Positions 5,468 to 32,135 of a DNA stretch of 64,000 nt are shown here, piece by piece (the first letter of the stretch is position 1; each line of letters opens with the position of its first letter). This stretch comes from Cycloclasticus pugetii PS-1 (GTDB lineage: Bacteria; Pseudomonadota; Gammaproteobacteria; Methylococcales; Cycloclasticaceae). The translations under genes and the position numbers were made by a program. The notes under the pieces were generated by a model, which worked only from the letters and a program-made list of their open reading frames with translations, made no database searches and had not been told where the DNA came from. The stretch covers positions 1,364,001 to 1,428,000 of the forward strand of contig NZ_ARVU01000001.1 of the NCBI RefSeq assembly GCF_000384415.1, written 5' to 3'.

Positions 5468-5618
5468 AATCATCCCCTTTCGTTAAGGCAATGATCAGGG
5501 ATAATCGAGATTTAGAGCTATGGAAAAGCTTTCTTCAAGACAAGTAAGTTTTCATCAAAAACTACTTCTAGCCAAAACGCACCATGGGTCTAAAAAGTCT
5601 TAGATTTTGGAATATCAA

Positions 5619-6892: not shown

Positions 6893-7699
6893 ATGGATGA
6901 ACTTGGTTTTGATTTCAACAACGCTATACCCTGGTTTCTTCGCCAACAGGAACACCCTTACGAGCTAGTCAGAATGACTTCTGAGCAAGTCGATGAACTC
7001 CTCACCAATACCGCCGTCGCGGTACGGCGTTGTTACATCACAGATCAAATGCTTACCAAGGCTTCTTCACAATCAGGGCTTTCCAAAGCCGAAATTTTAG
7101 CATCGCGCCTTCCAGACCCTGGTTCAACAATGGCAGGAGACTTTGGCGAGATTCTTGGATACTTCTATCAATCTACAAAAGAGCTACCTAAAAATGCTAT
7201 CGGCGCTAAGAAATGGCGACTTAAGCAAGACAGGAACAAACCAGCCCCAAAGTCCGATGTAGTCCATTTTTTGATGCCTAATCGGCCACACCCAAGCGAG
7301 GAAGATGCACTCTTATGTGCGGAAGTTAAAGTAAAATCGACCAATGGTGCCTCAACGCCAATTGCCTCCGCTATTGATGATTCAGCGAAAGATCAGACCA
7401 GTCGTCTTGCTACAACATTGGTGTGGCTTCGCGAACGCGCGATGACTGAGCCTGAACAGCTAGGGGACGTGGACATTCCCTTGCTAAACCGCTTTATCGA
7501 CCTTGTTGATTATCCACCCATAGCGCGGAGGTTTCACGCAATCGCCGTGATATGTGAAAGCTTAGCTGAACAAGAACTTACGACAGCACCTGACACCTCT
7601 GATGCTAATTTTACACTCCTAGTAATTGTAATCCCTGACCTTAAGCAGACCTACGAGTCCATGTTTTCTTCACTGAACAATACGCTAGTAGAGGAATAA
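6893..7699 (+). CDS. hamA: Hachiman defence protein HamA (DUF1837 nuclease)
   Basis: 268 residues with the DUF1837 pattern: GDFGEILGYF (E86), KWRLKQDRNKPAPKSDVV (D122) and AEVKVKST (E144, K146). These can be read as a PD-(D/E)XK nuclease active site. In studied Hachiman systems HamA is a nuclease kept inactive by HamB and released when HamB meets damaged or phage DNA. It ends 2 bases before hamB, as expected for the paired genes. The catalytic residues are my alignment by eye and should be checked against known HamA proteins. Confidence 0.87.
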   Translation: MDELGFDFNNAIPWFLRQQEHPYELVRMTSEQVDELLTNTAVAVRRCYITDQMLTKASSQSGLSKAEILASRLPDPGSTMAGDFGEILGYFYQSTKELPKNAIGAKKWRLKQDRNKPAPKSDVVHFLMPNRPHPSEEDALLCAEVKVKSTNGASTPIASAIDDSAKDQTSRLATTLVWLRERAMTEPEQLGDVDIPLLNRFIDLVDYPPIARRFHAIAVICESLAEQELTTAPDTSDANFTLLVIVIPDLKQTYESMFSSLNNTLVEE

Positions 7700-10752: not shown

Positions 10753-13700
10753 TCAGAATAATCGACTACCCAATTCATGATTGACCAACCCAATGCGCAC
10801 TGCCGCAATGTAGTTCATGGCTTCATCTATTTCGCCATTCAGGGCATTTATGCTTGAAGCAGAAAGATTTGGACAAAAAGAATCTTCTTTAATCTCACCA
10901 TCTTGCTGCTTAGCGACACAATCACGTAACTCTTCAAGAACTGCTAAGGCATCGTAGACAATATCGTTATCATCCTCTTCGATATAACGCTTAAACTTCT
11001 CTTGAATTCGATCACAAGTCTCAACCGCCCGATCAAACTCATCCCCTTCATCCTGCTTCAAATTTTGTAGATCACATACATTTATCATGGATGAAATAAT
11101 CCCCAATGAGCCAATCCCTTGATCAAACTCTTTTAATAAGAGCCCATCGAATGACTTTCCAGCAATAGCTTGATTTAGGGCCTCGCTCTTATTAACCAAT
11201 ATATGTGGATTTTCAAATAAATAACTAAAGCCAAATTGTGGGATATAAGTGCCATCGATTTTCGGCATCAAATAGACTTGGCGGCTAGTATTTTTATGCT
11301 TTTTAACAACCGATAGAATCTCATCAAAAGAATGAAAATATGACTCTACCGTTTCCACATCTATTGCGATTAACAGCTCATCACTTGGCCATACCCCTCT
11401 GTCATTTCCACCCTCTCGAATAACTAATATCTCTATCTCCAAACCAAGATTAGTGATGCCCTTTTGAATTGCCGCTTTCTCTTTCTCCAGCCTACCTTTC
11501 AGCTTTTCTTTCGCGTTTGCCGAACAGAGCTGTAAAGCCTTTCCTCTAGATGCCTTTTTTGAAAGAGAAGTAACTGCCTCAACGAAACGGCTGTTTTGAG
11601 CACACTCGCTAAGAATCCATCTCAGCATACCTAATAACGCTTCAATACTCGAAGCAACAGGGCTAACATCCCAGTCAAGTACTGCCCAATATGAAGCGTC
11701 ACTCGCCTTTTTTACCTGTTCACAGAGGCTCGACGAAAAAGCCGACAACGCGCCATAGTTGTTTTCTCTATTGTTAAGACGGGGAATCAAATTCCCACAG
11801 ATACCAGCAATCAACGATGAAACCGGCTCCGTAAACTCCACACCACCTTCAATAGGATGTGGACCATAGTTAATAGACAGTTTTTGGTGCATAACATATC
11901 GGTTTGCCGCATTCGCCGTCTGCTCAATAGCAGCCGAATGCTTCTTAATAAATACACCTTCCTTACCACGGCACCATGCATCCACGTAGCTTTTTAGGTA
12001 TCTATCCGCATTCACTAACTGCTCTTTCATCAACTTGGCATAATCAGTCTCCGTTGGTGACAGTGATTGATTCGCCACCAACGCAATGAAGTTTTGGTTC
12101 CAGCGTTGAACAGCGAATGAAGGTAAATTTTTTCGAGGGATTGCCTTTGAAGCGATTGGGTAGTCACCGTATTGTAATGCATTACCGTCCCCTCCAATTG
12201 CCCTCGCCTCTACTTTGCCTGCATCGGGAGCTAAACTCACCAACTTGTCACACAACTGTATAACTGATTGTTCTGCATCGTCAGTCACGTCATCACTAAC
12301 AACGAGATAATCAGCTGAGACAACTTTTTCACCATCATCGTTAACGAAAACGACTGGCTTAGAAATCCAAGGAGTTACCGAATAATATTTGTCTAGGACA
12401 GTCCCCTCTCCCCCGAGGCTAGCAATGATCGACTGCGCCAGCTCAACATCAACTGCGGAGGCCACTTCCAATAATGGGCATATCTGGTCAAAGTCTCCGG
12501 AGATATTTCCACCAAATTGTAATTTCTTGTGTTCTGTAGCCCCTATAGAAGGAATGGGTCCCATGCTGGAAAACAACGCTACGAGCTCTTCAGTCTCTTT
12601 AACCTCATCAAGTTGGAACGAATCGTCGAGTACATCCAGAAGTTTTTTCCTATAATCCACGCACGCAATATTAGAAAACTCTTTCACAGCAAGATTCACT
12701 TGGCGCATAGCCATTGAATCGCCTGATGGCATTTCAGCACCAGCACACGCCATCATCGTCGCCATTGGCCAGTGAGCACTATCCAACGACTGTTTTTCCA
12801 GAATGGCTATCCATGACTTAGTCATTTCCTGAAGCGATACGATCCCCATTCCTGTCAACGCTAATGCCCATTCGGTTGCGGTAGGGGTTTCTTGTAATCT
12901 TCCAACAATCGACTGAATTAACGACTCACCATGATCGACGTTTACTAACTTCTGTATAACAACCGGTAGTGCCTCACTCACAACACATTGAATTGCCAAA
13001 TTATTGGATTCTTCCTTTAAAAAAACCAATTCATCATGGCTATGTAAAAACAGTGCTTCTGAACGAATATCATGAATACCAGCAATAACCCCTGGAGCCG
13101 TATAACGAATCAGGTGCTCATCCAGCAACCGACCTAAAGCGCTTCCTAGGGAATTTTGATTGAGACCGAGAACAGTAGATAACCGATTAACCTGTAATGC
13201 CCCACCAACTCTGAATGCAGCAGAACAGACTCTGACTACGGCCAGTTCTTCATTTCTCGCTTGTTTTTTTCTATCAGTGATCTGTCCTTTTATTACGTCT
13301 TCTAACCTTTTTCCCTGAGTGAGGATATGCGTATATTCAAGCAGTAAACCTTGACTCAGCCGATAAGGCTCCTTCCAATAAACCCACGTCGTCCTTTCTT
13401 CTTGTTGTAATTTCTCCCATAGGCCAACAGCAAATTTTTCATCAAGCGCAGAATCAATAAGACTTACATGACTAATGTCACCAAGAACGGCAACATCTTC
13501 CTGCCGGACAGAGCCTATAAAGAACACTCCTGGTTTTGTGCGCGTTTCTCTAGTCAAAGCCTGAAATAGCGATGCGTCAAATTTTCCAACATCATCTAGC
13601 ACGATGCCTACGGGGCGCATTAAGGAGGGTTGAAGTGCTTCTACTAAATTTAATATGGCCGCTATATCACCACTTTGTGACATTGTGGAGACACGAAACC

Positions 13701-14604
13701 ACCTCATATAATGTGATAGTTCATGAACACTCATCCACTGTAGGGCTGACTTTCCCGAACCAGATGGACCAACAACTAAGACACTGCGCGTTTCCTGAAT
13801 TTTCTCTACAACTCTCGCAACCGAATCAGGCCTATCCATGACCAATCCAGCTGCAATATGTCCCGGCTGAACATCAACACCGCCGTAAAACTCAGAGTCC
13901 ATGAGCGGATCGTCAAACGTAACAGGGAAACAGACACCTCGCTCTATAGCTTCATTGATTGACGACGGATCGATACTCTTAAGAAGACGAGAGACTAAAG
14001 CTTCAATTGTTTGGACAGATATTCGAGATCGGAGGTTGTAAGGCTTACGGGCGTTTTCTGAAGCCACAAAGCCACAGAATGCCAGAACGCCATGAAAGAT
14101 TATCTCGGCTATGCCCGAAACAACACCCAAACGATCTTCCAGCTCACCCACCGCCAACTGCTTGGGGTCTGGGATAACTAGCGATCCGCTTTCATTCTTC
14201 GATTCTTGATCAACAAAACCATCCCACTTAAGAAAATCACCTACAGCTGCCGGTTTCTCTAGAAATAGCCAGCGCCCATCAATAACCATCCCTGCGGCCC
14301 CAAGGGTTTTAGCACCCTCATTTAACTTTTGTTCATAGCCCTTAATTTCAGAGTTAGTAAACGGTGGCCTATGAGCACCCCGTGATTTCACTTGGATCAG
14401 TGTTAGGTTATCTTCTTGCTCGATAACAATATCATCAAATCCCTCAGGAACGACTACACCCGATGAGAGCCTATTACTCCAAATAGAAATAGCTAACAAC
14501 GAGGCTACAGCGTCCTGAAACCTAAAGCCTCGGCCAGCCCATGCTCCAGATCGGCTATCTTTCCAGAACTCTTCTAAAACTGGTAATTTCTTATCTTTAT
14601 CCAT
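10753..14604 (-). CDS. Large nuclease-NTPase fusion, putative defence protein (Cap4-like N-terminus, STAND-like P-loop)
   Basis: 1283 residues. N-terminus: GRGFRFQ (25-30), DDIVIEQ (57-63) and LIQVKS (69-74), the arrangement of Cap4/DUF4297-type PD-(D/E)XK nucleases. Middle: Walker A GPSGSGKS (279-286), Walker B VGIVLDDVG (332-340) and a sensor-like FFIGSVRQED (361-370), then helical, winged-helix-like sequence. The remaining about 800 residues have no recognisable repeats. The plan (nuclease, STAND NTPase, long sensor) is that of Avs-type antiphage sensors, but I cannot match it to a named Avs class. It lies in the same ICE cargo slot as Hachiman, with no adjacent partner on its strand. The start has only a weak, distant GGAG. 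A function in defence is inference. Confidence 0.7.
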   Translation of the reverse strand: MDKDKKLPVLEEFWKDSRSGAWAGRGFRFQDAVASLLAISIWSNRLSSGVVVPEGFDDIVIEQEDNLTLIQVKSRGAHRPPFTNSEIKGYEQKLNEGAKTLGAAGMVIDGRWLFLEKPAAVGDFLKWDGFVDQESKNESGSLVIPDPKQLAVGELEDRLGVVSGIAEIIFHGVLAFCGFVASENARKPYNLRSRISVQTIEALVSRLLKSIDPSSINEAIERGVCFPVTFDDPLMDSEFYGGVDVQPGHIAAGLVMDRPDSVARVVEKIQETRSVLVVGPSGSGKSALQWMSVHELSHYMRWFRVSTMSQSGDIAAILNLVEALQPSLMRPVGIVLDDVGKFDASLFQALTRETRTKPGVFFIGSVRQEDVAVLGDISHVSLIDSALDEKFAVGLWEKLQQEERTTWVYWKEPYRLSQGLLLEYTHILTQGKRLEDVIKGQITDRKKQARNEELAVVRVCSAAFRVGGALQVNRLSTVLGLNQNSLGSALGRLLDEHLIRYTAPGVIAGIHDIRSEALFLHSHDELVFLKEESNNLAIQCVVSEALPVVIQKLVNVDHGESLIQSIVGRLQETPTATEWALALTGMGIVSLQEMTKSWIAILEKQSLDSAHWPMATMMACAGAEMPSGDSMAMRQVNLAVKEFSNIACVDYRKKLLDVLDDSFQLDEVKETEELVALFSSMGPIPSIGATEHKKLQFGGNISGDFDQICPLLEVASAVDVELAQSIIASLGGEGTVLDKYYSVTPWISKPVVFVNDDGEKVVSADYLVVSDDVTDDAEQSVIQLCDKLVSLAPDAGKVEARAIGGDGNALQYGDYPIASKAIPRKNLPSFAVQRWNQNFIALVANQSLSPTETDYAKLMKEQLVNADRYLKSYVDAWCRGKEGVFIKKHSAAIEQTANAANRYVMHQKLSINYGPHPIEGGVEFTEPVSSLIAGICGNLIPRLNNRENNYGALSAFSSSLCEQVKKASDASYWAVLDWDVSPVASSIEALLGMLRWILSECAQNSRFVEAVTSLSKKASRGKALQLCSANAKEKLKGRLEKEKAAIQKGITNLGLEIEILVIREGGNDRGVWPSDELLIAIDVETVESYFHSFDEILSVVKKHKNTSRQVYLMPKIDGTYIPQFGFSYLFENPHILVNKSEALNQAIAGKSFDGLLLKEFDQGIGSLGIISSMINVCDLQNLKQDEGDEFDRAVETCDRIQEKFKRYIEEDDNDIVYDALAVLEELRDCVAKQQDGEIKEDSFCPNLSASSINALNGEIDEAMNYIAAVRIGLVNHELGSRLF

Positions 14605-14663: not shown

Positions 14664-15395
14664 TCAAAAATACTTTTTCAGCCGCTCGAAAGCAACACGC
14701 GTCGCCAAGCCTAACAGAAAGGCAAAAGGCAGGATAACGGCCACCGGATTAATGCTGAACGGCAGGCTGATATAGACCACACAAGCAGCTACAAATGAAG
14801 GTACGACGGATCGTCTGGCCAGATTGAAGACATTACTGCTCTCGCGCCCCCCGCCCCACCGCCTGAGGTCGCGTTCCACCAGCCCGTCAACACCACCCAC
14901 GAGCGCCGCAACGAAGAAGATCGGCAGTGAAAATAGGATGAGCGCTAAACGGGTGACGAATGTTTGTGTAACGTAGGTGGATGCTTGAAGATAGTCATCG
15001 AATCGTTGATATAAGCCATATCCCCATGCCTGCAACGATGAAAAAAAACTGGCGTCAGGAACATCAGGCGCGTTATGCAGAAGCGTTTTAATCCAGGATT
15101 GACGGGATACCCATCCTACTGCCTCGCCCGTTAACGCAATAATATCCTTCCTGATAGCTAACGATTGATCATAGAGCTGCTGGTTGAGATAAGCCTGGTC
15201 AGCCGCCAGAACGGCTTTTGCGTGGTCTGCCCCTTGTTCTGGCCAGAACCAGATCATGCCTAGCCATTCAATGATGATAGACAGCATTAAACTGATCACC
15301 AGCCAAACAACTAACTGAACCAGTGCAGAAAACAGTTGGCCGATCAGGCCGGGTTCTTTTCTTCTGGGGGGCTGATACTGCTGTGACTTGGCCAT
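14664..15395 (-). CDS. ICE membrane protein, TIGR03747 family
   Basis: 243-residue inner-membrane protein with an N-terminal helix pair (about 17-45) and two or three more segments in the C-terminal half (about 147-170, 205-233). The family lies directly downstream of TraD in MPF-G ICEs, here 17 bases after it. Its role in transfer is not defined. It is the last conjugation gene before the defence island interrupts the series. Confidence 0.85.
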   Translation of the reverse strand: MAKSQQYQPPRRKEPGLIGQLFSALVQLVVWLVISLMLSIIIEWLGMIWFWPEQGADHAKAVLAADQAYLNQQLYDQSLAIRKDIIALTGEAVGWVSRQSWIKTLLHNAPDVPDASFFSSLQAWGYGLYQRFDDYLQASTYVTQTFVTRLALILFSLPIFFVAALVGGVDGLVERDLRRWGGGRESSNVFNLARRSVVPSFVAACVVYISLPFSINPVAVILPFAFLLGLATRVAFERLKKYF

Positions 15396-15412: not shown

Positions 15413-17482
15413 CTATCGACCATAATAGCTCGGCCAGTCCACGACTGACGTATAACTGCGCCGCATATGCTGGAGCATGTCGCCCAAATCGTCGGGCAGC
15501 TCCTGATCATCCATTTTGGATGGCATGGGGATGCGGATTTTCCACAGTTCACTGCCCCTAAGCAGGACGAATGCCTGCCCTTTGGGGAGCGCCACAATAT
15601 CGGCGGGGGAGATCATAGGCACACGGCTGATGCTCACCCGATCCTGATTATTGGAGGTAAAGCCAATGCCGGCAGAGGTATCGACATTGTCGGTGACGCC
15701 GGAAACCGCCATGATTTCACTGACGCTGACTTCTGGCAGCTGCTTGGTGAACATTTCACAGGTCGCCACCTCCTTCACACCCATGATCAGCATGGTGCCG
15801 ATGTTGCCAGCCAACTGCCCGGCTTTGGCTTCACTACCCAGTTCGGCAATCGGGTCGCTCCAGGTCTGGGTGTACAGATTAAGTTGGTAGCCAGCCCCGC
15901 CACTTTTATTGATCAACGTCTTGAACTGCGGCCCGATCAAGTCGGAGAATTCGTCCCCGTGGATCACAATATCCGGTGGTTTCCTGGCCTGCTCGTTCGT
16001 ATTGCTTGGTGCTATACCGTGCTTATAGATATGACCTGCCAGACTGGTCAGGTCACTGAACATGGAAGCGCCCACCGCACTGGCCACCTCTGGGTCGGTG
16101 AGAGCATCCAGCCCCACATAGACGACAGCGTTGGATCTAATCGCTTGCGCCCACTCCAACACCGGACGTTGATCGTCGGTTTTCGTCTTATCAGGTGCCA
16201 GGATAGAAGCGATGTTGCCCGTGGTGAGCTTTTCCAGGAAGGGCTTGATGGACACCGTGATTTTCAAAAAATACTCACGGTCATAACGAAAAGCAGACAT
16301 CAGCCCTTCTAACACCTGATCGAAAGTCGCATGAGTATTGAGATAGCGCACCATTGCCAGTGCCTCAGGGTCTTTGCCCTGATCGATCCTTGGCAGCGAC
16401 TTTATGTTAATACTGTCTTGCAGCTCCCCCAGCTCATCCTGCCAATCCTCCGGACCATGTTCAGCCAACCAATGGCGACCATACAGAATCAGCAGAGCAT
16501 CGATATCGGTGATATAGCGACGAATTTTGAGGTAATCCGGTATTTCACCCATCGCCACTAGCGCCACGGCGATAACATTGATGAATTGCCAGGCAAATTC
16601 TTTAAACGCACTGGCCTCACCTTCGCCCGGTAGCTGGCTGGCGATTCGCGTCGCAACTTCTGTAATCCGCGAAAAAGAACCAATGGCGTTGTAGCGGGCG
16701 CTCAGCTCGGGATAGCCCAGATGAAAGATAATGAGCTGACGCCCTGCTTTCTGGGATTCAACATAGATGCGCTTTAGATAATCGGCATCTCCTTTCGGGT
16801 CTAACACAATGACACAGTTATTGCCGCGTCGAATATCCTGGGTCGTCAGCACTTCGGCCAGCCGGGTTTTGCCATGGCGAGTTCGGGCGATCACCACCAT
16901 ATGCCCGACCCGGTCACTGAGCGGCATTGTGGCATTGGTTTCCCCTCTGATCCCGACACCGTGTATGACAGCATCGCCCCCGATGGCAGGCGGGGGACGG
17001 ACGGGATTCAGAGGGGAATCTAGTGCGGTCCATCGCATGATCGTTCGCAACAGGGGCGTATGCTCCCATTCGATCTCTTTGCGACGAACCCATTGTTTGA
17101 TGGCGCTGGGCTGCAGATAACGTTCAGCGCGTTTATCGCGGGCAGCGTAGAGTCGTTCGGTGTGTGTCTGGTTCCAGCGAAAGCCTCGCCCTAAGAACAA
17201 CACCGACTGACTCACCGGCACTTGGGATGATGACATGACATAGCGCGGGCTGCGCTTGAGATGGCGCTGATATTGAATCACTCGCCAGGCCTGGCGACCA
17301 CGCCATACACCGACCCCGCCCAGACACCCGGCGCTGAACAGGGCAACCGATGGGGTCATCATCAAAGTGTGTGGTGCAGCTAACACGATCCCCGCACAAC
17401 TCAACGCCACTATCGCCGAAGACAGTTCCACAGGGGGACGTAATAACACTTCGACTTCATACCGGTCGGTCACTGCTCCCAA
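15413..17482 (-). CDS. traD: Type IV coupling protein TraD (TIGR03743 family)
   Basis: 689 residues. An N-terminal membrane region (about 20-58) is followed by a soluble AAA-like domain with a Walker A variant ARTRHGKT (199-206), VIVLDPKGDADY (224-235), and Walker B-like DIVIHGDEFSDLI. Coupling proteins bring the relaxase-DNA complex to the secretion channel at the inner membrane and hydrolyse ATP. The Walker A lacks the usual leading glycine. The start overlaps the end of the TIGR03765 gene by 13 bases. Neighbours and length agree with the family. Confidence 0.92.
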   Translation of the reverse strand: MGAVTDRYEVEVLLRPPVELSSAIVALSCAGIVLAAPHTLMMTPSVALFSAGCLGGVGVWRGRQAWRVIQYQRHLKRSPRYVMSSSQVPVSQSVLFLGRGFRWNQTHTERLYAARDKRAERYLQPSAIKQWVRRKEIEWEHTPLLRTIMRWTALDSPLNPVRPPPAIGGDAVIHGVGIRGETNATMPLSDRVGHMVVIARTRHGKTRLAEVLTTQDIRRGNNCVIVLDPKGDADYLKRIYVESQKAGRQLIIFHLGYPELSARYNAIGSFSRITEVATRIASQLPGEGEASAFKEFAWQFINVIAVALVAMGEIPDYLKIRRYITDIDALLILYGRHWLAEHGPEDWQDELGELQDSINIKSLPRIDQGKDPEALAMVRYLNTHATFDQVLEGLMSAFRYDREYFLKITVSIKPFLEKLTTGNIASILAPDKTKTDDQRPVLEWAQAIRSNAVVYVGLDALTDPEVASAVGASMFSDLTSLAGHIYKHGIAPSNTNEQARKPPDIVIHGDEFSDLIGPQFKTLINKSGGAGYQLNLYTQTWSDPIAELGSEAKAGQLAGNIGTMLIMGVKEVATCEMFTKQLPEVSVSEIMAVSGVTDNVDTSAGIGFTSNNQDRVSISRVPMISPADIVALPKGQAFVLLRGSELWKIRIPMPSKMDDQELPDDLGDMLQHMRRSYTSVVDWPSYYGR

Positions 17483-21091: not shown

Positions 21092-21958
21092 TTAACGCCC
21101 TAGATACACTGCTGTGATCTGTTCACGTTCATGACCGAGTTCCTGGGAAATTGCCCAGCGGGCAACCTGATCATTCGCGCGTTCCTCTTCACTAAGCTCA
21201 CTGCTAGATGGGCCACCACAGGCCGGTGCCTGTTTTCCGGTGAGTTCGTAATACCGCTCTTGCGCATAGCGGTGACGCAAACCATGCAATTTGGATAGCC
21301 CTGCCTTTTGCGTCTCACGTTCATAGAGGCGCATTTGCTGAACATACATCAGGTGAGAGGGAATCAATGAGCCTTTCCCCGCCACCAACCGCGCGCGTCT
21401 TAAAACGTCCCGCTGCTCGTCGGTGCGTATAGGAATTTCCCGCGCCCGTCCCCCTTTACACCAGGTAGATTTCAGTCGAATGTAGGTATTTCGGTCTGCG
21501 TAGTCCGGACTGAACTTAATCGCTTCTTCCCGCCTCAGGCCAAAGGCTTTTTGCAATTCCAGGCTGATTCTTAAATGCGGGTCGCTGATTTTTTCAAGCA
21601 GCTCCTGATCCAGGTCACGCGCTTTCGACACGTTAGTAACAAAGACCCGAGAGTCAATGCCGTAATAGGCATTGTCCTTAGCCACGACATTTTGCTTACC
21701 GATTTTTTCAGCCCACCAACGCAATGCGGCGAGACGATTTTTGATCGTACCGGGAGTCAGCCCTTCTTCGAGATATTTGGCGACCAACGCATCAACATGC
21801 TTAGGCTTTAGAGATTTCGCCTCCATGCGCCGATAGCCCAATTCATTAAGATGGTTGGCCATCGTTTGTAATAACTGAAAACGTTCAGCTTGTGTGGCGC
21901 GACTGCCATCCTGATTACGTTGACATAAATCCTTTAATTGGTAATTGATATCCTTCAC
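21092..21958 (-). CDS. Tyrosine recombinase, integrase-domain protein with SAM-like N-terminus
   Basis: 288 residues. N-terminal SAM-like DNA-binding domain (INYQLKDLCQRNQDGSRAT to LRWWAEKIGK, about 1-105), then the catalytic domain: FGLRREEAIKF (first Arg), KGGRAREIPI (Lys region), LHGLRHRYAQ (His-x-x-Arg), ELGHEREQITAVYLGR (final His and Tyr). I place the start at a GTG because GAGGAG lies exactly 6 bases upstream (complement of 21965-21970); the longer frame runs about 50 codons through sequence unlike the family. Such integrase-domain proteins are common passengers in MPF-G ICEs; it is probably not the enzyme that integrates this ICE, a role better suited to the gene next to the tRNA site. 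Confidence 0.82.
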   Translation of the reverse strand: MKDINYQLKDLCQRNQDGSRATQAERFQLLQTMANHLNELGYRRMEAKSLKPKHVDALVAKYLEEGLTPGTIKNRLAALRWWAEKIGKQNVVAKDNAYYGIDSRVFVTNVSKARDLDQELLEKISDPHLRISLELQKAFGLRREEAIKFSPDYADRNTYIRLKSTWCKGGRAREIPIRTDEQRDVLRRARLVAGKGSLIPSHLMYVQQMRLYERETQKAGLSKLHGLRHRYAQERYYELTGKQAPACGGPSSSELSEEERANDQVARWAISQELGHEREQITAVYLGR

Positions 21959-22203
21959 AGACAACTCCTCGTCGAGAAATAAAGCGTGTTTGCATTCTCG
22001 AAAAAAAAGAGGTGCTGAGTCGTTAGTTAACCTTTCAAGGCCGAAGGAAATAATCTTCAAGGACTTATTGATGCATCTATCTGATGCCAGTAGCAGACAG
22101 CCATGCGGAACAGGCATTGAATCAAGGAAATTCTGCCAATGGTTGGTGGATCGTGCGTTACAGATAATTTCGTTAGATTGTCTAATCGTTCCGGTCAGGT
22201 TTG

Positions 22204-23960: not shown

Positions 23961-24959
23961 TTACGGGTGACACCAGCAACCATCGCTCTCGCTATCAAAA
24001 AATCTAACATCTACCTTTTCACATAGCTCATCCGCTATAAGCTGCGCCACACGTGTACAGTAGCCCTGATCATTTCCAAATACTGAAAGTGCTACTTTTT
24101 CGATCCCTGATTTAGCGATTCTACGCAAAATATGGAGGTCATGTTCTCCAAAGCCCCAACCATATACGACTAGCTCAGAGGGTAAATTGGCCAATACTTC
24201 GCGATAAACGGTGTTGAGGTAATAGCTGCCCTGAATGGATTTTATTTTCTGCTGGCTGGTCCCTTCACTAACAAATAGCGGGACATAACTACCGGCCTCC
24301 CATTTATTTAAAATTTGGTCGAGCAGACTAATCCCTCCTGAGGTTATTTTCCTTTCGTTTTCTATCTTGTCTCTGGCCAGCACGAAACTTCCATGGGGAT
24401 AGAAAACTAAGGTGCAAGACTGTTCTCCACCAATAGGATCGCGAAAACGAGACCAATCATCGTCAAACTCTGACTGCAAGAAACAGTCTTTAAAAGCATG
24501 GCGATCCTGAATATCCAATCCATACATCATCGCCCAATAAACAATCAGGTCATAGTTCAATGGTATGACAGTGTTGAAACTTTTAAGAAAGTTATAGATA
24601 TTCGGAATGCTTTCCGAGACATGCTCGTACTCAGAATGAATATCTCTAACTGCCGCAATTAGGCAGTCTCTTACATGCAGGTATGCTTGCTCTGTCTTTT
24701 CATCTTCAATCTTTAAGGATTTATTGACATTGGTCGCCTGCCATACAATTCTGAGAATAAGCTCAAAGTCATCTGTATGGAAAAAGTCGAACAGACTCTG
24801 TATATCGTCAGTTAGCAAGCCATTGTCAGTCGCATGCTCCTTCAATGACCCATAGGCAAAACTATCGTCAATCGCGATGCTTGCTCCGTTCCCCAGCAAG
24901 ATTGCCCCGCCATTGAATTCGTCTTTGATATCAGACCACTGAAATATTTTGGTCGGCAA
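23961..24959 (-). CDS. DUF4917 family protein (SIR2-like fold), putative defence gene
   Basis: 332 residues. Motifs typical of SIR2-like NAD-binding proteins occur in order: ILLGNGASIAID (about 20-31), FNTVIPLNYDLIVYWAM (the N-Y-D-L element), FYPHGSF and VVYGWGFGEHD. These match DUF4917. I place the start at a TTG because AGGAGG lies 8 bases upstream (complement of 24968-24973); the longer frame depends on another TTG with no ribosome site. SIR2-like proteins in mobile elements often deplete NAD in phage defence, but this family has no proven function that I know. It sits just before the ICE integrase, a usual cargo position. Confidence 0.75.
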   Translation of the reverse strand: MPTKIFQWSDIKDEFNGGAILLGNGASIAIDDSFAYGSLKEHATDNGLLTDDIQSLFDFFHTDDFELILRIVWQATNVNKSLKIEDEKTEQAYLHVRDCLIAAVRDIHSEYEHVSESIPNIYNFLKSFNTVIPLNYDLIVYWAMMYGLDIQDRHAFKDCFLQSEFDDDWSRFRDPIGGEQSCTLVFYPHGSFVLARDKIENERKITSGGISLLDQILNKWEAGSYVPLFVSEGTSQQKIKSIQGSYYLNTVYREVLANLPSELVVYGWGFGEHDLHILRRIAKSGIEKVALSVFGNDQGYCTRVAQLIADELCEKVDVRFFDSESDGCWCHP

Positions 24960-25066
24960 CTGCACATCCTCCTGATCTATAAAGACAGCTTGTCCACAAA
25001 TAATGCCGAGCGACAATACATTGATCTAGCTGTAACTGTCACCCTCAAACCCAATGCAAGAGGGTA

Positions 25067-26428
25067 TCACCAGGTACCTTTTAGTGCTGCGGTGAGGTCG
25101 AAACCAGACTTTTTAATCATGTAATCAGCAATCCTCTGGCTTGCCTCTCGGAGTTTTGTCATGGAAGGGTGAATATAATGTGCATCCACGCCTTCCCTGG
25201 CATGGCTTAGTAATTCATCAATAAGGATTGGGCTGATTTCCAGTTCTGCTCCAATAGACTTGTAGGTTCGTCGCAAATCATGATTCGTAACAGATACTCC
25301 AGACGCGTTTTTAACGATCTTTCGAGCATCCTTTGTGTCCCTGTAATGCCCGCTGCCAGTAATTCCCGGAAATAGATACTCCGTCTGTTCAGGCAAATTC
25401 GCCAATCGATTACGAACAATCGTTTCAGTGGCAGTGTTCAGAGGTAATTCCACCTGCTTGCCGCCCTTCTTGATAATCTTGAAAGTATGCCTATTGAGAT
25501 CAATACCGGCGATCCGGATAGTCACCGTACCCGTCAACCTTACACCCGAGAACAGCATAAATAACAAAGCATCCCGCCCATTCCGAAAGGCGGAAGTGTG
25601 ATCATGCTCCCGGAGGCCCAGCACCGCTTTAAGATAGGGTTTGAAATCGCCATCATCCAGGCGCTCGGTGCGACGGTTAGAGCGATTGATGTTAACACCC
25701 AGTTGCTTCATCGCCCGGCTAACCGGATTTCGGAGAAAAAGGTCCGACTCGTCATATTTCGCCTGAGCCCAGTTCCATACTGATCTCAATATGCGCATCG
25801 CATTGTGCAATTGGGTTTCGCCTTTACCCACTTGCTGGAGGTATACGGCCTTCACCTGCTCTGCCGATATGCTGTACAGAGGCTCATCCAGTAAGTCCAC
25901 CAACAAAGCCTCACATTTATTTTTGATATCTATCAAATAACGGTCACCGGGACGCCTCTCCGCAACAAAGCCATCGGGTAAATACTCCCCTTCCTGATCT
26001 GTTGGTGAGCCAAATATCATGTCTCTGAAAGATCGCTTAGCCGAGAATAGCTGTTGCTCATTATCCTGCTCTGCGGCTAGCTGCTGGGCAAGTAGCTGAG
26101 GGTCACGCCCTTCTTGTATTTCCAGGAAGAGGCTATCCGCTTTCTGCCTCAATTCCGAGATCGGCACTTCCGCGTTTCTCGCCTCGCCGACCTTCATAAT
26201 TTGCCGTTTATACAGCTTACTTTTTTGCTGACCACGAATACGAATCCTTTCGTATAGACAAAAGGCACTATCTGAATATGATTGATTGGGCCTGACCCGT
26301 ATAGCCAGATGGCTAACGTTGTCATAAAGGTATGACTCCTTGGTAAACTCACCGCTATTAATTCGGCGCTCAATTGCGGTTAAGCTTGGCTTGCTGAATT
26401 TGATCCGGTTTTCTGATGATCTTCCCAT
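25067..26428 (-). CDS. int: Tyrosine integrase of the ICE
   Basis: 453 residues. An N-terminal arm-binding region (to about 150) and core-binding region (about 160-250) precede the catalytic domain: SGVRLTGTVTIRIAGI (Arg), KKGGKQVELPL (Lys), NHDLRRTYKSIG (His-x-x-Arg), LSHAREGVDAHYIHP (His and Tyr). The start at 26428 (MGRSSEN) has GGAG about 9 bases upstream; the longer frame begins 20 codons earlier within the promoter region. It lies next to the tRNA-Leu fragment at the ICE end and is therefore the likely integration and excision enzyme. Confidence 0.88.
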   Translation of the reverse strand: MGRSSENRIKFSKPSLTAIERRINSGEFTKESYLYDNVSHLAIRVRPNQSYSDSAFCLYERIRIRGQQKSKLYKRQIMKVGEARNAEVPISELRQKADSLFLEIQEGRDPQLLAQQLAAEQDNEQQLFSAKRSFRDMIFGSPTDQEGEYLPDGFVAERRPGDRYLIDIKNKCEALLVDLLDEPLYSISAEQVKAVYLQQVGKGETQLHNAMRILRSVWNWAQAKYDESDLFLRNPVSRAMKQLGVNINRSNRRTERLDDGDFKPYLKAVLGLREHDHTSAFRNGRDALLFMLFSGVRLTGTVTIRIAGIDLNRHTFKIIKKGGKQVELPLNTATETIVRNRLANLPEQTEYLFPGITGSGHYRDTKDARKIVKNASGVSVTNHDLRRTYKSIGAELEISPILIDELLSHAREGVDAHYIHPSMTKLREASQRIADYMIKKSGFDLTAALKGTW

Positions 26429-26648
26429 GAACAAGAACTCCTTTTCAGGCGATGATGGGGCTAGATTTGGGATACACCTGGGATACAAAACAGAGTAATT
26501 TTTGTATCCCAGAGGAAATATCGAGTAACAGTGAAAATTGACGAACCAGGAAAGAATAAGGCATTAAACCCTTATATATCAACCACTTGAGTAGCGTAAA
26601 TCAACTTTAAGGGACTTCAATCAACACTGAGGAATGATTATACGAGAA

Positions 26649-27114: not shown

Positions 27115-27453
27115 TTACTTTTCGTTAAACACGTCAACCAGCTTGCTAACCTCAACATCGCTAACAATGCTGTGAGCTAACAATACAGCTTCAATGGCTG
27201 CTTTGTCTTCTTCAGTTGCTGAACCATAACGGTCATGTGAGGTAACAAAGCCTTCAAACTGCTCATCATCGTTATCCAGGCTAATTAACAAGTTTTTGTC
27301 TTCTGCTACATCCGCGAATGCTTCAAGAAATTCCTCGAATTGTGTATCAGAGTCGATATCAACTTTACAGGTGAACTCAAAACCCATTATAGCGAATTCG
27401 CCTACATATAATTTTTTGCGCAGACGTCTGCTGCGACCTATTTCTTTAGCCAT
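27115..27453 (-). CDS. yggL: YggL family 50S ribosome-binding protein
   Basis: 112 residues. SRRLRKKLYVGEFAIMGFEF near the N-terminus and VEVSKLVDVFNE at the end follow the E. coli YggL pattern (SRRLRKK...EF.ELGF and a C-terminal L.DVW), and length matches. YggL binds the large ribosomal subunit. It is a single gene with its own terminator, and is chromosomal rather than ICE-borne. Confidence 0.85.
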   Translation of the reverse strand: MAKEIGRSRRLRKKLYVGEFAIMGFEFTCKVDIDSDTQFEEFLEAFADVAEDKNLLISLDNDDEQFEGFVTSHDRYGSATEEDKAAIEAVLLAHSIVSDVEVSKLVDVFNEK

Positions 27454-27719: not shown

Positions 27720-28772
27720 TTAGCCACAAAGTACCCACGCTTCTTTCTCTGAGCTAAACATTTTTTCTTTCCAGTCATCACATAACGGAATCACTATTTC
27801 GGTGGTTACCCCTGATAAATAGTCTCGCGTATCAATATAATAATACTCAATCAACCCATCTATAGTACCGCCTTGGATTATAGGCATACCTAGCGCTTCT
27901 AAACCCGGCAAAAGAGCTTCAAACTCTTCCTTTGAGCACATTGAAGGAAAGAAATGATGCACGCCTTCACCCTGCTCTTTTAAAAAATCGTGATACACGC
28001 ATTTATCTGACTCTGGGGTAATAAGCTCTAAAGCAAACTCACCCACACGGCCAACATGGTTATTATATTTATGATAAACCTGTTCACCAAAGAACGTCGT
28101 GTCGCTCATGGTGACACCCGATTCAATTTTAAATTCAATCCAATCTGTCATTGAGAATAATTTCGTTAAGCCTGCCTTGGCCACATCCCTATCTTTACAA
28201 ACCACCCCAAGGTGTAACATATTGGCTGTTGGTAATAATTTTGGACCTAATAGCGTCAGGTCTATATCAAACACTTCATCAGGCGTCATGGATGCTTGCC
28301 AATTTTCTGTTTTTGGGCAAACCACTTCAAACATCACGTTGGACACCAATGAGCGCGTATCTAATAAATAAACATCTGCCACGTCGTAAATGGTGCCAGT
28401 TTGACGAATACTAATGTCTAGTTCATCGAGTGTTTTATTTAACGCGTCAACGTTAAAGGCCGTTGATTGAGTCAGGCTAACATGGTGTACGCCTTCGCCA
28501 ACTGTGTCTAACATATGTTGAAAGCTAGATGGCCCGTCGATAGGCTGTATTAACTCTATCGCTAAATCTTTATTTCGCCCCATAACTCGTATAAAGCGGT
28601 GCTCAACCAATTCACCTTCAAAGCGTGTATTTGTTAAATGGTTACCGTCATAACGAAAAACCTCCCAGTGACTAATACCAAAAAATCGTGCGTAATTGGT
28701 TACCACTTGGCGGTAGTCACGAACCACTATGGAGGTACTATGCCAGCCGTCTATAGGTATGCTTAATGCCAT
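27720..28772 (-). CDS. VOC family protein with two glyoxalase-fold domains
   Basis: 350 residues in two related halves: residues about 5-155 (STSIVVRDYRQVVTNYARFF, EGVHHVSLT) and about 175-335 (MLHLGVVCKDRDVAKAGL, GEGVHHFFP, YYIDTRDYLSGVTTEIV). Each half carries the GVHH and late Glu positions expected for VOC metal ligands. VOC folds include extradiol-type dioxygenases, epimerases and glyoxalases; the substrate cannot be read. It is last in the dioxygenase operon, 28 bases after the single-domain VOC gene, so probably acts on the ring-hydroxylation product or a relative. Confidence 0.8.
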   Translation of the reverse strand: MALSIPIDGWHSTSIVVRDYRQVVTNYARFFGISHWEVFRYDGNHLTNTRFEGELVEHRFIRVMGRNKDLAIELIQPIDGPSSFQHMLDTVGEGVHHVSLTQSTAFNVDALNKTLDELDISIRQTGTIYDVADVYLLDTRSLVSNVMFEVVCPKTENWQASMTPDEVFDIDLTLLGPKLLPTANMLHLGVVCKDRDVAKAGLTKLFSMTDWIEFKIESGVTMSDTTFFGEQVYHKYNNHVGRVGEFALELITPESDKCVYHDFLKEQGEGVHHFFPSMCSKEEFEALLPGLEALGMPIIQGGTIDGLIEYYYIDTRDYLSGVTTEIVIPLCDDWKEKMFSSEKEAWVLCG

Positions 28773-28800
28773 TTATTTCCCCTTAAAATTATTATTGTTA

Positions 28801-29307
28801 TTAGTCAAACGTAACATCTTCACCAAGGTCGGCAATTCGTGCGTATGTCGGTGGTGCAACCACTTCTAGAAACATGCCACCTAATTGCTCACGGGTGTCT
28901 AAGTAATAAAGTTCTGCAACCCCTGCAATATTGCAATAATTTCCAACCTTTACCCCTTGGCGAGTATATTCTTTAACTAACTCTAAAGGGTTAGGGTGTG
29001 ATAAATCACCCACATGTTGCATGCCGTCCCCGTGTTCTTTAACAAAGTCATCAAACACAGTTTTACCCGAAACCGGCTCGCACAATTCGATCAAGGTATC
29101 GCCCATCCGTGCAAAGGCTGATATCCAAACAAATTCAGCTGGCTCACCATAGTATTCGGACGTTTCCATCATATCTGATGAAATTTCCATCACTCGCCAT
29201 GTTTTTATACCCATTAACTTGGCATAGCTTTTTGCGGTTACTCTCCAGTCCTTTACTGCCATTGCCACATGGTTGATAGGCCCCATACTAATGTCTAAAT
29301 CACTCAT
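28801..29307 (-). CDS. VOC family protein, single domain
   Basis: 168 residues: INHVAMAVKDWRVTAKSYAKL at the N-terminus with a ligand-type His, GDGMQHVGD in the middle and YYLDTREQLGGMFLEVVAPP at the end. It resembles each half of the two-domain VOC gene downstream and may share its substrate or form a complex with it. It begins 9 bases after the CMD-like gene stops. Substrate unknown. Confidence 0.78.
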   Translation of the reverse strand: MSDLDISMGPINHVAMAVKDWRVTAKSYAKLMGIKTWRVMEISSDMMETSEYYGEPAEFVWISAFARMGDTLIELCEPVSGKTVFDDFVKEHGDGMQHVGDLSHPNPLELVKEYTRQGVKVGNYCNIAGVAELYYLDTREQLGGMFLEVVAPPTYARIADLGEDVTFD

Positions 29308-29316
29308 TCTTTGCTC

Positions 29317-29781
29317 CTATTGATTGCTATTTTGTTGTTCTTTTTGCTCGAGCATTTCTTTTATTTCTGGGCCCAAAACCTCATTAGCCACTTTTAAGCC
29401 CAATACCATTGCAGGTGCTCCTAAATAAAAGACGGTTTGGAATAAAACCTCAATAATTTGCTTAGGTTTCATCCCAGCATGCAACGCGACTTTCATATGG
29501 TCTTTTAACGGCCCTTCACGTCCTAATGCTAAATCAGTGCCCATTAAGATCAACGACCTTTCTTTTAACGTTAAACCTTCTCGCTCATATAAAGCTCCCC
29601 ATGTTTTAGAAAAAACATAGCCCAGCTCATCACCAAACAGAGGGTTATCCAGCAAAGATTCAATATGCTCAGAGGATTCTTCTCCCAACACTTCACGCAT
29701 CAACGATAGGCCTTGCTTAAAGTCCTCTCCTTCACGTGAAAAAGGAAAACCATCAGCATATTTATTGTCAATATCAGTCAT
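29317..29781 (-). CDS. Carboxymuconolactone decarboxylase-like (CMD/AhpD fold) protein
   Basis: 154 residues. TWGALYEREGLTLKERSLI, LKDHMKVALHAGMKPKQIIEVLFQTVFYLGAPA is the CMD signature with the HxxxAL-type helix. It lacks a CxxC, so is not an AhpD peroxidase; it is closer to gamma-carboxymuconolactone decarboxylases of aromatic catabolism. It sits between the dioxygenase subunits and the VOC genes, supporting a catabolic pathway. The reaction is inferred from the family only. Confidence 0.82.
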   Translation of the reverse strand: MTDIDNKYADGFPFSREGEDFKQGLSLMREVLGEESSEHIESLLDNPLFGDELGYVFSKTWGALYEREGLTLKERSLILMGTDLALGREGPLKDHMKVALHAGMKPKQIIEVLFQTVFYLGAPAMVLGLKVANEVLGPEIKEMLEQKEQQNSNQ

Positions 29782-29794
29782 TACTACCCCCTAT

Positions 29795-30304
29795 TTATAT
29801 TAAAAAACTTAAGTCGTATATTTCGCCATCACAATTAAGCAGTACTACTTTTTTGCTGGTCATTTTCCATTCACCGCCACGCTTAACTAATTTGTGCTCG
29901 CAATTAGCTGCCATTGTTTGTAATGGGTAAAACCGATCTTGCCGATTGGCACGGTACTCATGCAAGGTAAGGTATGAGTCAATAATGACGACTCCATCCA
30001 CTGTTTTAACCCGTACGTTATTTACTGAGTGTTGCGTTCTTGAGCTAGGTATTTGTGCATGACAAGCTCCGCTTTGTAGCCGTTTAATGCGCTCATCAAG
30101 CATCTCCATATCATCATAAATAATGGATACATGTTTTGTTGGGTCAACATTTACATCACGGCTATAAGGTAACCAATATAATGCATCGGCAGTGAATAGC
30201 TTTCTCCACTCATTCACCTCGCCTTCGTCAAGTAAACATGCTTCAGCAAATAAAAAGTCTTCTGCTTCAGCTCGTGTCATTTGTTCTGAATTATTAGCAC
30301 TCAT
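29795..30304 (-). CDS. Aromatic ring-hydroxylating dioxygenase, beta subunit
   Basis: 169 residues with the small cone-shaped beta-subunit fold: EDFLFAEACLLDEGEVNEW, FTADALYWLPYSRD, SRTQHSVNNVRV and a C-terminal KRGGEWKMTSKKVVLLN. It forms the structural partner of the alpha subunit. Its start overlaps the alpha gene's stop by 4 bases (ATGA). Confidence 0.9.
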   Translation of the reverse strand: MSANNSEQMTRAEAEDFLFAEACLLDEGEVNEWRKLFTADALYWLPYSRDVNVDPTKHVSIIYDDMEMLDERIKRLQSGACHAQIPSSRTQHSVNNVRVKTVDGVVIIDSYLTLHEYRANRQDRFYPLQTMAANCEHKLVKRGGEWKMTSKKVVLLNCDGEIYDLSFLI

Positions 30305-31551
30305 GATTGGCTCCCTAACGTCATTAAACGTCTGTATTCAAAATAAGGTGCTCTTTGCTGTGTTTCTTGCGTATGCCCACCATAACGACGCCCGTGCTCA
30401 TCGACCTCTTCAGATTTAATACCTCGATTAAATAAAATCCACGGTACCATCTCTGCCTTCATCCCCTGACCGGCTCTATCAAACATCGCATAGTCATCTG
30501 GTCCACCAAAGGCGGCAGGGCTATAAAAGAACTCATGCTCACGCACCCGTCGAGTATTAATCTCATCAGGCGCATCTTTTAGCATCGTGTGATACATACG
30601 CACTTCTGTTTTATCAACCCCCATAGGGCGAATAACTCGGAATTGATATTCAAGTAGGGCTAAGTTGGGAAAAATCACTAAATTAAAACGATGTCGTAAC
30701 ACATGCATGGCGCGCTCTTTGCCGTGTTTCTCGATCATTAAGTCTATATATTCAGCTGGCCAGCGTTTATAAACCGCTTCGTCGGGCAAGCTGTACACTT
30801 CCAGTAAATTATTGCCATAACCACAATCCATACCTTTAGTGTCATAGCCTTGATAATTAGGTGGCATGCCCATTTTTCTGATCATCACATCAAAGGCGGT
30901 TGAATGGGTAACCGGCGCATGATAGCCCTCAACACTGCCTTCTGTTTGGATTTTCCAGTTAGCATGATAGTAATGTTTATTCACCCCGCTATTACCGACG
31001 ATGATTTCGCCAACAGGAGAAAAATCCATGTACATGTCGATGTACTCTTTCACGCCTCTTAGTTTCTCGTCTAATGAAATATCAGGAACAGATAGTAACG
31101 ACGCGAAGATAATACCCCGATAACTTTCAACTTTTTTAGCCGAAACTAAGCCTAAACTTTTATAGTCTAATTCACCTTCGTTATAACCACGCGGCATCGA
31201 CACCGCTAATAACTCACCGTCCATACCATATTCCCAGCCATGATATTGGCAAACAAAACTAGGTGTATTACCTTTTTCTAAAGGACACACTGCTACCCCG
31301 CGATGAGTACAACGGTTAATAACAACGTTTATTTCATTATTTTCTCCACGCGTTACAATAACTGGAACATCACCCATAAAGGTCGTTTTGTAATCACCCG
31401 GATTCGGGATTTCACTTTCGTGTGCGACATATATCCAGGAGCGATAAAAAATCCGTTCCATTTCATCGCTATACACCCCTTGATCGTTATATAAGCTAAC
31501 ATGTGTTCGATCTATTCGAGCCAAATCATCATAGTCACGTTCTACTGACAT
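30301..31551 (-). CDS. Aromatic ring-hydroxylating dioxygenase, alpha subunit (Rieske)
   Basis: 416 residues. The Rieske [2Fe-2S] ligands are C81-H83 (RCTHRG) and C101-H104 (CQYHGW), 18 residues apart. The catalytic domain has NWKIQTEGSVEGYHAPVTH with the mononuclear iron histidines H211 and H216; the residue at the bridging acid position is Glu (E208). The protein adds O2 to an aromatic ring as a cis-diol, using electrons from a reductase and often a ferredoxin, neither of which is nearby. It leads the five-gene operon. Close homologues hydroxylate aromatic acids or hydrocarbons; the substrate here cannot be read. Confidence 0.9.
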   Translation of the reverse strand: MSVERDYDDLARIDRTHVSLYNDQGVYSDEMERIFYRSWIYVAHESEIPNPGDYKTTFMGDVPVIVTRGENNEINVVINRCTHRGVAVCPLEKGNTPSFVCQYHGWEYGMDGELLAVSMPRGYNEGELDYKSLGLVSAKKVESYRGIIFASLLSVPDISLDEKLRGVKEYIDMYMDFSPVGEIIVGNSGVNKHYYHANWKIQTEGSVEGYHAPVTHSTAFDVMIRKMGMPPNYQGYDTKGMDCGYGNNLLEVYSLPDEAVYKRWPAEYIDLMIEKHGKERAMHVLRHRFNLVIFPNLALLEYQFRVIRPMGVDKTEVRMYHTMLKDAPDEINTRRVREHEFFYSPAAFGGPDDYAMFDRAGQGMKAEMVPWILFNRGIKSEEVDEHGRRYGGHTQETQQRAPYFEYRRLMTLGSQS

Positions 31552-31733
31552 AATCCTATCTCCCCTAGTTTATTTATTCTAATTTTTATGATCGTGTTAC
31601 TAGAAAAATAACATACATTAGAAAATACTAATTTACAATATGATTATATTGAATAGAGAAATTGTCTTACGAAGTATTTATTAGGTGTAGCAACAAGTTA
31701 TGCAGAAAAAATCTGCATAACTTGTTTTAGGTA

Positions 31734-32135
31734 TTAGGCAGGAATGGTTGTTATTGCTGTATAAAAAAGCCCCGCGCAACACGCAAAGCCCAAGCCAAAA
31801 GCACTGAAACGCAAGGTTGCCATATTGGTTAAATAGGCAATAAAGTAAACGCCGCGTATAACCACGAAAGAAATGCAGAGCATGGTAACCGTTTCATTTA
31901 TCGCATTGGTGATAAAAACAGCCAATACAGCGGCTGAAAAAAGGCCTAATGCTTCCCAGCAATTGGCATGTAAATATTGTGAACGAGCCCCTGCACCCAC
32001 TAGCGTTGCGGCTTGTACACGTGGGTTAACAAGGTCATATTTACCTGTTTGTGAAATTCGGTAATAACCACCAATTGATGAGGCCAAATAAGGCATAAAA
32101 GCAATACAAGTCAAACAAATCACAACGGTCAACAT
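31734..32135 (-). CDS. MAPEG family membrane protein
   Basis: 133 residues, four membrane helices (about 2-22, 60-80, 83-105, 112-131). NPRVQAATLVGAGARSQYLHANCWEAL between the first two helices is the family signature. MAPEG proteins are membrane enzymes often with glutathione-transferase or peroxidase activity; bacterial members mostly lack known substrates. It lies upstream of the dioxygenase operon on the same strand but 182 bases away, so may be separate. Confidence 0.82.
   Translation of the reverse strand: MLTVVICLTCIAFMPYLASSIGGYYRISQTGKYDLVNPRVQAATLVGAGARSQYLHANCWEALGLFSAAVLAVFITNAINETVTMLCISFVVIRGVYFIAYLTNMATLRFSAFGLGFACCAGLFYTAITTIPA

Follow-up and report, generated by a model that had tools for sequence, protein, structure and literature searches.

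Which step of aromatic breakdown is served by an oxygenase whose genes are followed by one CMD-family and two VOC-family proteins, with no reductase at hand? The question is raised by a locus of Cycloclasticus pugetii PS-1, which we analyzed within a 64,000-nucleotide stretch of contig NZ_ARVU01000001.1 (assembly GCF_000384415.1, positions 1,364,001 to 1,428,000 of the forward strand), hereafter called the window. Our preferred reading, to which we give a probability of about 50%, is that five genes form one module for the catabolism of polycyclic aromatic hydrocarbons (PAHs), in which a carboxylated intermediate is oxygenated with borrowed electrons and then decarboxylated and isomerized. The first two products, alpha and beta, form a Rieske ring-hydroxylating oxygenase that would be fed by a reductase chain encoded elsewhere, and it would most likely act not on the PAH itself but on a carboxylated intermediate produced by ring cleavage during PAH degradation. 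The CMD and VOC proteins would decarboxylate and isomerize its product, and the C-terminal domain of the two-domain VOC protein would carry out a further metal-dependent proton transfer of the isomerase or epimerase type.

The five genes were found on the minus strand at positions 27720-31551, where an earlier note on this DNA had placed them, each with the expected Pfam family. According to the open reading frame list, the alpha subunit comes first (30301..31551; 416 amino acids [aa]; Rieske and Ring_hydroxyl_A), followed by the beta subunit (29795..30304; 169 aa; Ring_hydroxyl_B), which has 4 bases in common with the end of alpha, the PcaC-like CMD-family protein (29317..29781; 154 aa; CMD), the single-domain VOC protein (28801..29307; 168 aa; Glyoxalase_4), and the two-domain VOC protein (27720..28772; 350 aa; Glyoxalase_4 twice). 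Alpha shows both the CxH...CxxH Rieske motif and the His-His-Asp site of an alpha/beta-type Rieske oxygenase, and a beta gene adjoins it. None of the five proteins reaches the NCBIfam equivalog cut-off of a characterized enzyme; for alpha, the benzoate, anthranilate, and phenylpropionate dioxygenase equivalogs stay below cut-off, with a best score of 216 bits versus 781. The same note had reported that no reductase or ferredoxin lies nearby, and in the 64-kb window PF00175, PF00111, and a second Rieske protein indeed have no match; genome-wide, all matches to PF00175, PF00111, and the Rieske domain fall outside it except alpha itself. The reported lack of a diol dehydrogenase or extradiol dioxygenase holds for the neighbors scanned within about 10 kb, none of which is either enzyme, a scan that did not take in every open reading frame of the window.

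The module recurs in a constant form. The two-domain VOC protein is present in 5 of 18 Cycloclasticus genomes, PS-1 included, and a separate contig scan returned four loci from Cycloclasticus metagenome-assembled genomes, in agreement with the other four of these five (L011 to L014; here L numbers denote loci and G numbers genomes). The module is complete and in the same order in the window, L011, L012, and L013, and L014 holds alpha, beta, CMD, VOC, and the start of the two-domain VOC gene before the contig ends. A two-domain VOC profile matched 1 of 398 Pseudomonadota genomes, namely PS-1 itself. That sample missed Immundisolibacter, which was found by an alpha profile run on 369 Gammaproteobacteria genomes: 14 matched, and the strongest besides PS-1 were three genomes of one family. 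A distribution limited to Cycloclasticus is thereby ruled out. Within Immundisolibacterales, the module occurs in four of eight genomes (G663, which is Immundisolibacter cernigliae TR3.2, G753, G763, and G764) and was not seen in the remaining four. The arrangement there is alpha, beta, a fused CMD and VOC, and two-domain VOC: CMD and VOC form one reading frame in all four loci, confirmed by Pfam in two. A second alpha adjoins the module divergently in all four, and in TR3.2 the module and this divergent neighbor are bordered by unrelated genes (glycogen-synthase-like and helicase). The surroundings also differ within Cycloclasticus, with MAPEG and YggL genes in the window, L011, and L012 versus a hydrolase fragment and a second oxygenase in L013. 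Searches of plasmids gave only generic matches for the CMD protein and only distant ones for the two VOC proteins (11 rows), with no annotated oxygenase nearby in the three regions inspected.

The module genes are under purifying selection, with dN/dS of 0.01-0.08 for each of them wherever dS could be computed (dS is saturated against L013 for alpha, beta, and the two-domain VOC gene). Because of these ratios and because gene order is kept in two bacterial orders, the module is not a chance assembly. A recent transfer from Immundisolibacter itself was rejected, given an alpha identity of 70% and a host-like module G+C content (about 0.41); the G+C content of TR3.2 is printed as 0.68 (PMC5054325). 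An older transfer between the lineages is possible, since the Cycloclasticus alphas nest among the module alphas of Immundisolibacterales in a tree of alphas, not of species. The earlier note would have given up its proposal of a short, little-studied catabolic set that borrows electrons had the cluster lacked conservation or had a pathway with exactly this gene set been published. The cluster is conserved, and a literature text search, outside which most subscription papers fall, found no such pathway; of the papers that name both Cycloclasticus and carboxymuconolactone decarboxylase, none appeared relevant from its listing entry. These results support a short, conserved, and undescribed catabolic gene set that needs electrons from elsewhere, a defined unit that can be tested in two PAH degraders available in culture.

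An oxygenase in such a host could instead attack an unsubstituted PAH or heteroarene directly, its diol being processed by dehydrogenases and extradiol enzymes encoded elsewhere and the CMD and VOC proteins being accessory. PS-1 specializes in PAHs, its genome carries 21 alphas at scattered sites, and common downstream enzymes and redundancy are reported in the consulted part of PMC11099662. Yet wherever the module was found, the CMD, VOC, and two-domain VOC genes go with alpha, and the first two can be fused, so we regard direct attack as somewhat unlikely.

Features of the alpha subunit that the earlier note did not pick up set it apart. By alignment, its Rieske ligands are C81/H83/C101/H104 and its iron triad is H211/H216/D352, and the bridge residue is E208, where Asp is expected. 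Read by eye from alignments, this position is Asp in the five nearest solved structures. In a tree of 43 alphas, the module alphas belong to one fully supported clade of 12 members: five from Cycloclasticus, four module alphas from Immundisolibacterales (group A), and three paralogues from the same order (group B). All 12 read EGSVEGYH, whereas the other beta-paired alphas have Asp, typically as EN..D.YH; the clade thus combines a change of the bridging Asp to Glu with one of the neighboring Asn to Gly. We extended the comparison to 90 distinct alphas, a convenience set from PS-1, relatives found by similarity, and Immundisolibacterales (deduplicated by the last 200 residues, near-copies retained; the window, L003, L011-L014, L030-L050 minus L047, L052, L053, L057-L069, L100-L139, and L163-L178, of L001-L178). 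Beta pairing was called by a custom profile built from 11 betas; in G+C-rich loci, open reading frames were picked mechanically, which hid some alphas and betas, and tblastn corrected the four module loci. Among the 80 alphas with an adjoining beta gene, 12 have Glu, all from this clade, and 68 have Asp. The 10 without a detected beta divide evenly, five with Glu and five with Asp, so Rieske oxygenases without a beta subunit may often have a Glu bridge. Those five are found in L065 (8324-9547; PS-1 g2298323, the second Glu-bridged alpha among the 21), L129, L167, L174, and L177. From these alignments, the Glu bridge marks the clade among the beta-paired alphas examined, without being unique among Rieske oxygenases.

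In the text consulted of PMC5033481, the bridging Asp is termed universally conserved, and Asp205Ala is cited as inactivating naphthalene dioxygenase. The residue could be taken as a condition of membership that all 12 clade alphas lack, having Glu instead. It is no ground for excluding them from the Rieske oxygenases, because the carnitine oxygenase CntA likewise carries Glu: its natural E205 is required for electron transfer, and E205D inactivates it (PMC7948474, in the portion consulted). With this clade, nature thus provides a way to ask whether only Asp can serve as the bridging carboxylate, here in a beta-paired enzyme that evolved with Glu.

Where could the electrons come from? PS-1 has 21 alphas by Rieske motif and length (a stricter motif gave 15; we use the broader count), with 19 matches to the alpha catalytic domain, versus four matches to the FAD/NAD reductase domain (PF00175). 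There are also six plant-type ferredoxin-domain matches (PF00111) and, among 26 Rieske-domain matches, two Pfam-confirmed stand-alone Rieske ferredoxins; Reductase_C has no match in the genome. In strain P1, one ferredoxin/reductase pair (fer/ferR) is common to all PAH pathways (PMC8547461, available portion), and such components are often common to several oxygenases (PMC11099662, likewise in part). The missing reductase, which the earlier note had treated as a peculiarity of the operon, is thus ordinary for Cycloclasticus, and this part of its proposal falls away. Two candidate chains stand out. The first is Fer/FerR, at 2343-2345 kb in PS-1; ferR homologues (47% identical to PS-1 ferR) neighbor the group B alphas at two of three loci, those of TR3.2 and G555, and none was seen at the third. 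The second, at 506.9-508.0 kb, consists of a 239-aa reductase and a 121-aa Fer2 protein beside alpha g504619. A 65% homologue of this reductase occurs on the module's own contig in L013, and g504619 is the closest PS-1 relative of the divergent Immundisolibacterales alpha (45% in the two measured). The region around g504619 (L057, 4620-8004; PS-1 ~504.6-508.0 kb) encodes a benzoate-dioxygenase-like alpha/beta pair, followed by what appears to be a BenC-like reductase split in two genes. Beside the module in L013 (4962-11000) lie an acyl-CoA-dehydrogenase-like sequence and a second alpha in one frame crossing N bases, a beta gene, an NMT1-like protein, and a reductase.

The CMD and VOC proteins bear on what follows oxygenation. 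The CMD protein scores 63.7 bits against the PcaC NCBIfam model, with a cut-off of 155.7. AhpD-type peroxidases, which share the CMD fold, use a CxxC redox motif; this identity was ruled out, as the protein contains no Cys. Its fusion to VOC suggests an enzyme pair, and our literature search for the gene set gave no such pair. In the single VOC protein, the candidate metal ligands are H13, E74, H98, and E148, none of which varies among five orthologues. Its predicted structure (pLDDT 75) has 3gm5, a putative methylmalonyl-CoA epimerase, as its top match (Z 15.3 over 147 residues, 2.6 A), followed by hydroxymandelate synthase, epimerases, and HPPD domains (Z ~12-14). In the C-terminal half of the two-domain protein, E249, H273, and E325 occur in 19 of 19 proteins compared, and position 187 is His in 13 and Gln in 6; in the N-terminal half, the Immundisolibacterales orthologues no longer keep several of the ligand positions. 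The metal sites of glyoxalase I and methylmalonyl-CoA epimerase follow an H/Q-E-H-E pattern, and extradiol enzymes have three ligands in an H-H-E iron site. Judged by alignment, the VOC proteins appear to carry the glyoxalase/epimerase-like pattern, not the extradiol one. Against the methylmalonyl-CoA epimerase model of NCBIfam, the VOC and two-domain VOC proteins score 31.5 and 36.3, below its cut-off of 114.95.

The two-domain protein might nonetheless be a divergent ring-cleaving dioxygenase, extradiol-type or HPPD-like, so that the module would both oxygenate and cleave the ring. It has the two-domain size of those enzymes, whose metal residues lie in the C-terminal domain, as they do in those orthologues that keep them there only; and the single VOC model matches HPPD and hydroxymandelate synthase domains with Z values of 12-13. 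However, the extra Glu, E249, and the His or Gln at 187 complete a four-ligand glyoxalase/epimerase pattern in the 19 proteins, and only Glyoxalase, Glyoxalase_4, and epimerase models match the VOC proteins, extradiol family models giving no match to the two-domain protein. Ring cleavage by the module is therefore quite improbable.

We infer that the module genes act together in one pathway, and the class of reactions likewise. That the substrate is a carboxylated aromatic is our guess. A bolder version of the preferred reading, which we consider unlikely, is a dehydrogenase-free degradation of aromatic acids: the Glu-bridged oxygenase would form a diol acid, a CMD-VOC enzyme, instead of a diol dehydrogenase, would decarboxylate and rearrange it, and the two-domain VOC protein would finish the sequence. 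If this is true, the change of Asp to Glu, with the adjacent Asn to Gly, would represent a naturally evolved adjustment of electron transfer within a multi-subunit dioxygenase. Several points weigh against a borrowed-electron oxygenation of a carboxylated intermediate followed by decarboxylation and isomerization. The one pointer to such a substrate is a distant likeness to acid-attacking oxygenases, the nearest alphas outside the clade (IacC-type 38%, benzoate-type 37%), and the placement of the clade relative to other alphas lacks tree support. Either of the candidate chains could be the donor. The CMD and VOC domains could each act quite unlike PcaC and the epimerase. The predicted structure of the two-domain protein reaches a pLDDT of 37.3, from four near-identical rows, and its metal site is read from the alignment. 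Finally, in the available portion of the PS-1 transcriptome study on naphthalene (PMC11099662), the main text names no locus tag in the estimated range CYCPU_RS0106xxx/0107xxx. What makes the locus interesting is that the module is conserved, that CMD and VOC fuse, and that its alpha belongs to a Glu-bridged clade; besides the Glu bridge, the earlier note had also missed the fusion, the ligand patterns of the VOC proteins, and the presence of the module in Immundisolibacter, and the biochemical role is the one we infer.

Upstream of alpha on the minus strand lies a MAPEG-family membrane protein gene (31734..32135; 133 aa), a linked neighbor that is probably a separate transcription unit. The interval contains a 15-bp hairpin (31692..31726, minus strand; z = -7.69), a probable transcription boundary that is present in the window and, by sequence, in L011 but not in L012; MAPEG as the first gene of the operon was ruled out by it. 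Toward alpha, the hairpin is followed by a 45-base block (31606..31650, minus strand), almost identical in three Cycloclasticus genomes, which is a candidate promoter or operator. A consensus promoter scan listed none at this block, and the region holds 10 promoter-like matches versus 15.5 in shuffles. The YggL-family gene (27115..27453, minus strand), a conserved downstream neighbor outside the module, was found in only 4 of the 18 Cycloclasticus genomes. MAPEG raises one more alternative, namely a detoxification module in which it is a glutathione transferase and the VOC proteins have glutathione adducts or reactive aldehydes as substrates. The glyoxalase-I-like ligands would fit, as would the occurrence of a MAPEG homologue in four of the five Cycloclasticus genomes with the module and in none of the 13 without it. 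The strong hairpin, though, parts MAPEG from the module in the window, and the two adjoin in three Cycloclasticus loci only, not in L013 or in the Immundisolibacterales modules; the MAPEG copy of G015 lies on a different contig and is only 76% identical. Detoxification is accordingly a highly improbable role. PS-1 has a second MAPEG gene (1243166-1243552; L093), 74% identical to that beside the module.

Distant relatives of the two-domain VOC protein occur in other settings, some of which, like the fusion, speak for a link between CMD and VOC. One adjoins a CMD protein in L168, L170, and L171, all Immundisolibacterales (domains checked in L168), with no oxygenase labelled near the pair; in L168 (2737-6072), a short-chain fatty acid transporter-like gene, the VOC gene, CMD, and a YCII-like protein stand in a row. 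Another lies near an alpha/beta pair in L169, L172, and L173; L172 (5002-8656) has a phenylpropionate-dioxygenase-like alpha with beta, an ABM-domain protein (checked in this locus), and the VOC gene. Association with CMD or beta is not general for the wider family, because the copies in L165-L167 and L174-L178 have no labelled CMD or beta adjoining.

Positions 1-26500 of the window form a mobile island beside the module, partly richer in G+C. It carries conjugation genes (TrbI-like, 1196-2605; DUF3438, 2547-3428; DUF4400, 14664-15395; TraD-like, 15413-17482), two integrases (21092-22117 and 25067-26488), and defence-type genes: AbiJ-like (5607-6866), Hachiman HamA (6893-7699) and HamB (7702-10680), a STAND-like gene with a Cap4-like nuclease domain (10753-14604), and PDC-S21/DUF4917 (23961-25016).

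How does the module compare with known systems? The IacC/IacD and benzoate/anthranilate dioxygenases likewise have beta after alpha, at an alpha identity of 37-38%. Unlike the module, they show the canonical EN..D.YH-type motif, and the compared cluster, which we take to be iac, has its own oxidoreductase and dehydrogenase genes. Identity with the indole-3-acetate oxygenase IacC was rejected, as the module lacks the iac gene neighborhood. The PAH dioxygenases of Cycloclasticus (RHD-1, -2, and -3 of P1; phn of A5) share with it the alpha/beta pair, the genus, and shared electrons (PMC8547461, in part). In contrast, the other PS-1 alphas, 18-36% identical to that of the module and with an Asp bridge in 19 of 20, have no CMD or VOC partners beside them with the queries used. 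CntA shares the natural bridging Glu (PMC7948474, same portion), but it is an alpha3 enzyme without beta and acts on carnitine. Compared with the 4-carboxymuconolactone decarboxylase PcaC, the CMD protein belongs to the same Pfam family and falls far under the NCBIfam cut-off; in Immundisolibacterales it is fused to VOC, not to an enol-lactonase. Lastly, the single VOC model resembles methylmalonyl-CoA epimerase and 3gm5-like VOC proteins in fold, at 16-22% identity and under the cut-off; a further difference is the two-domain form beside it in the module.

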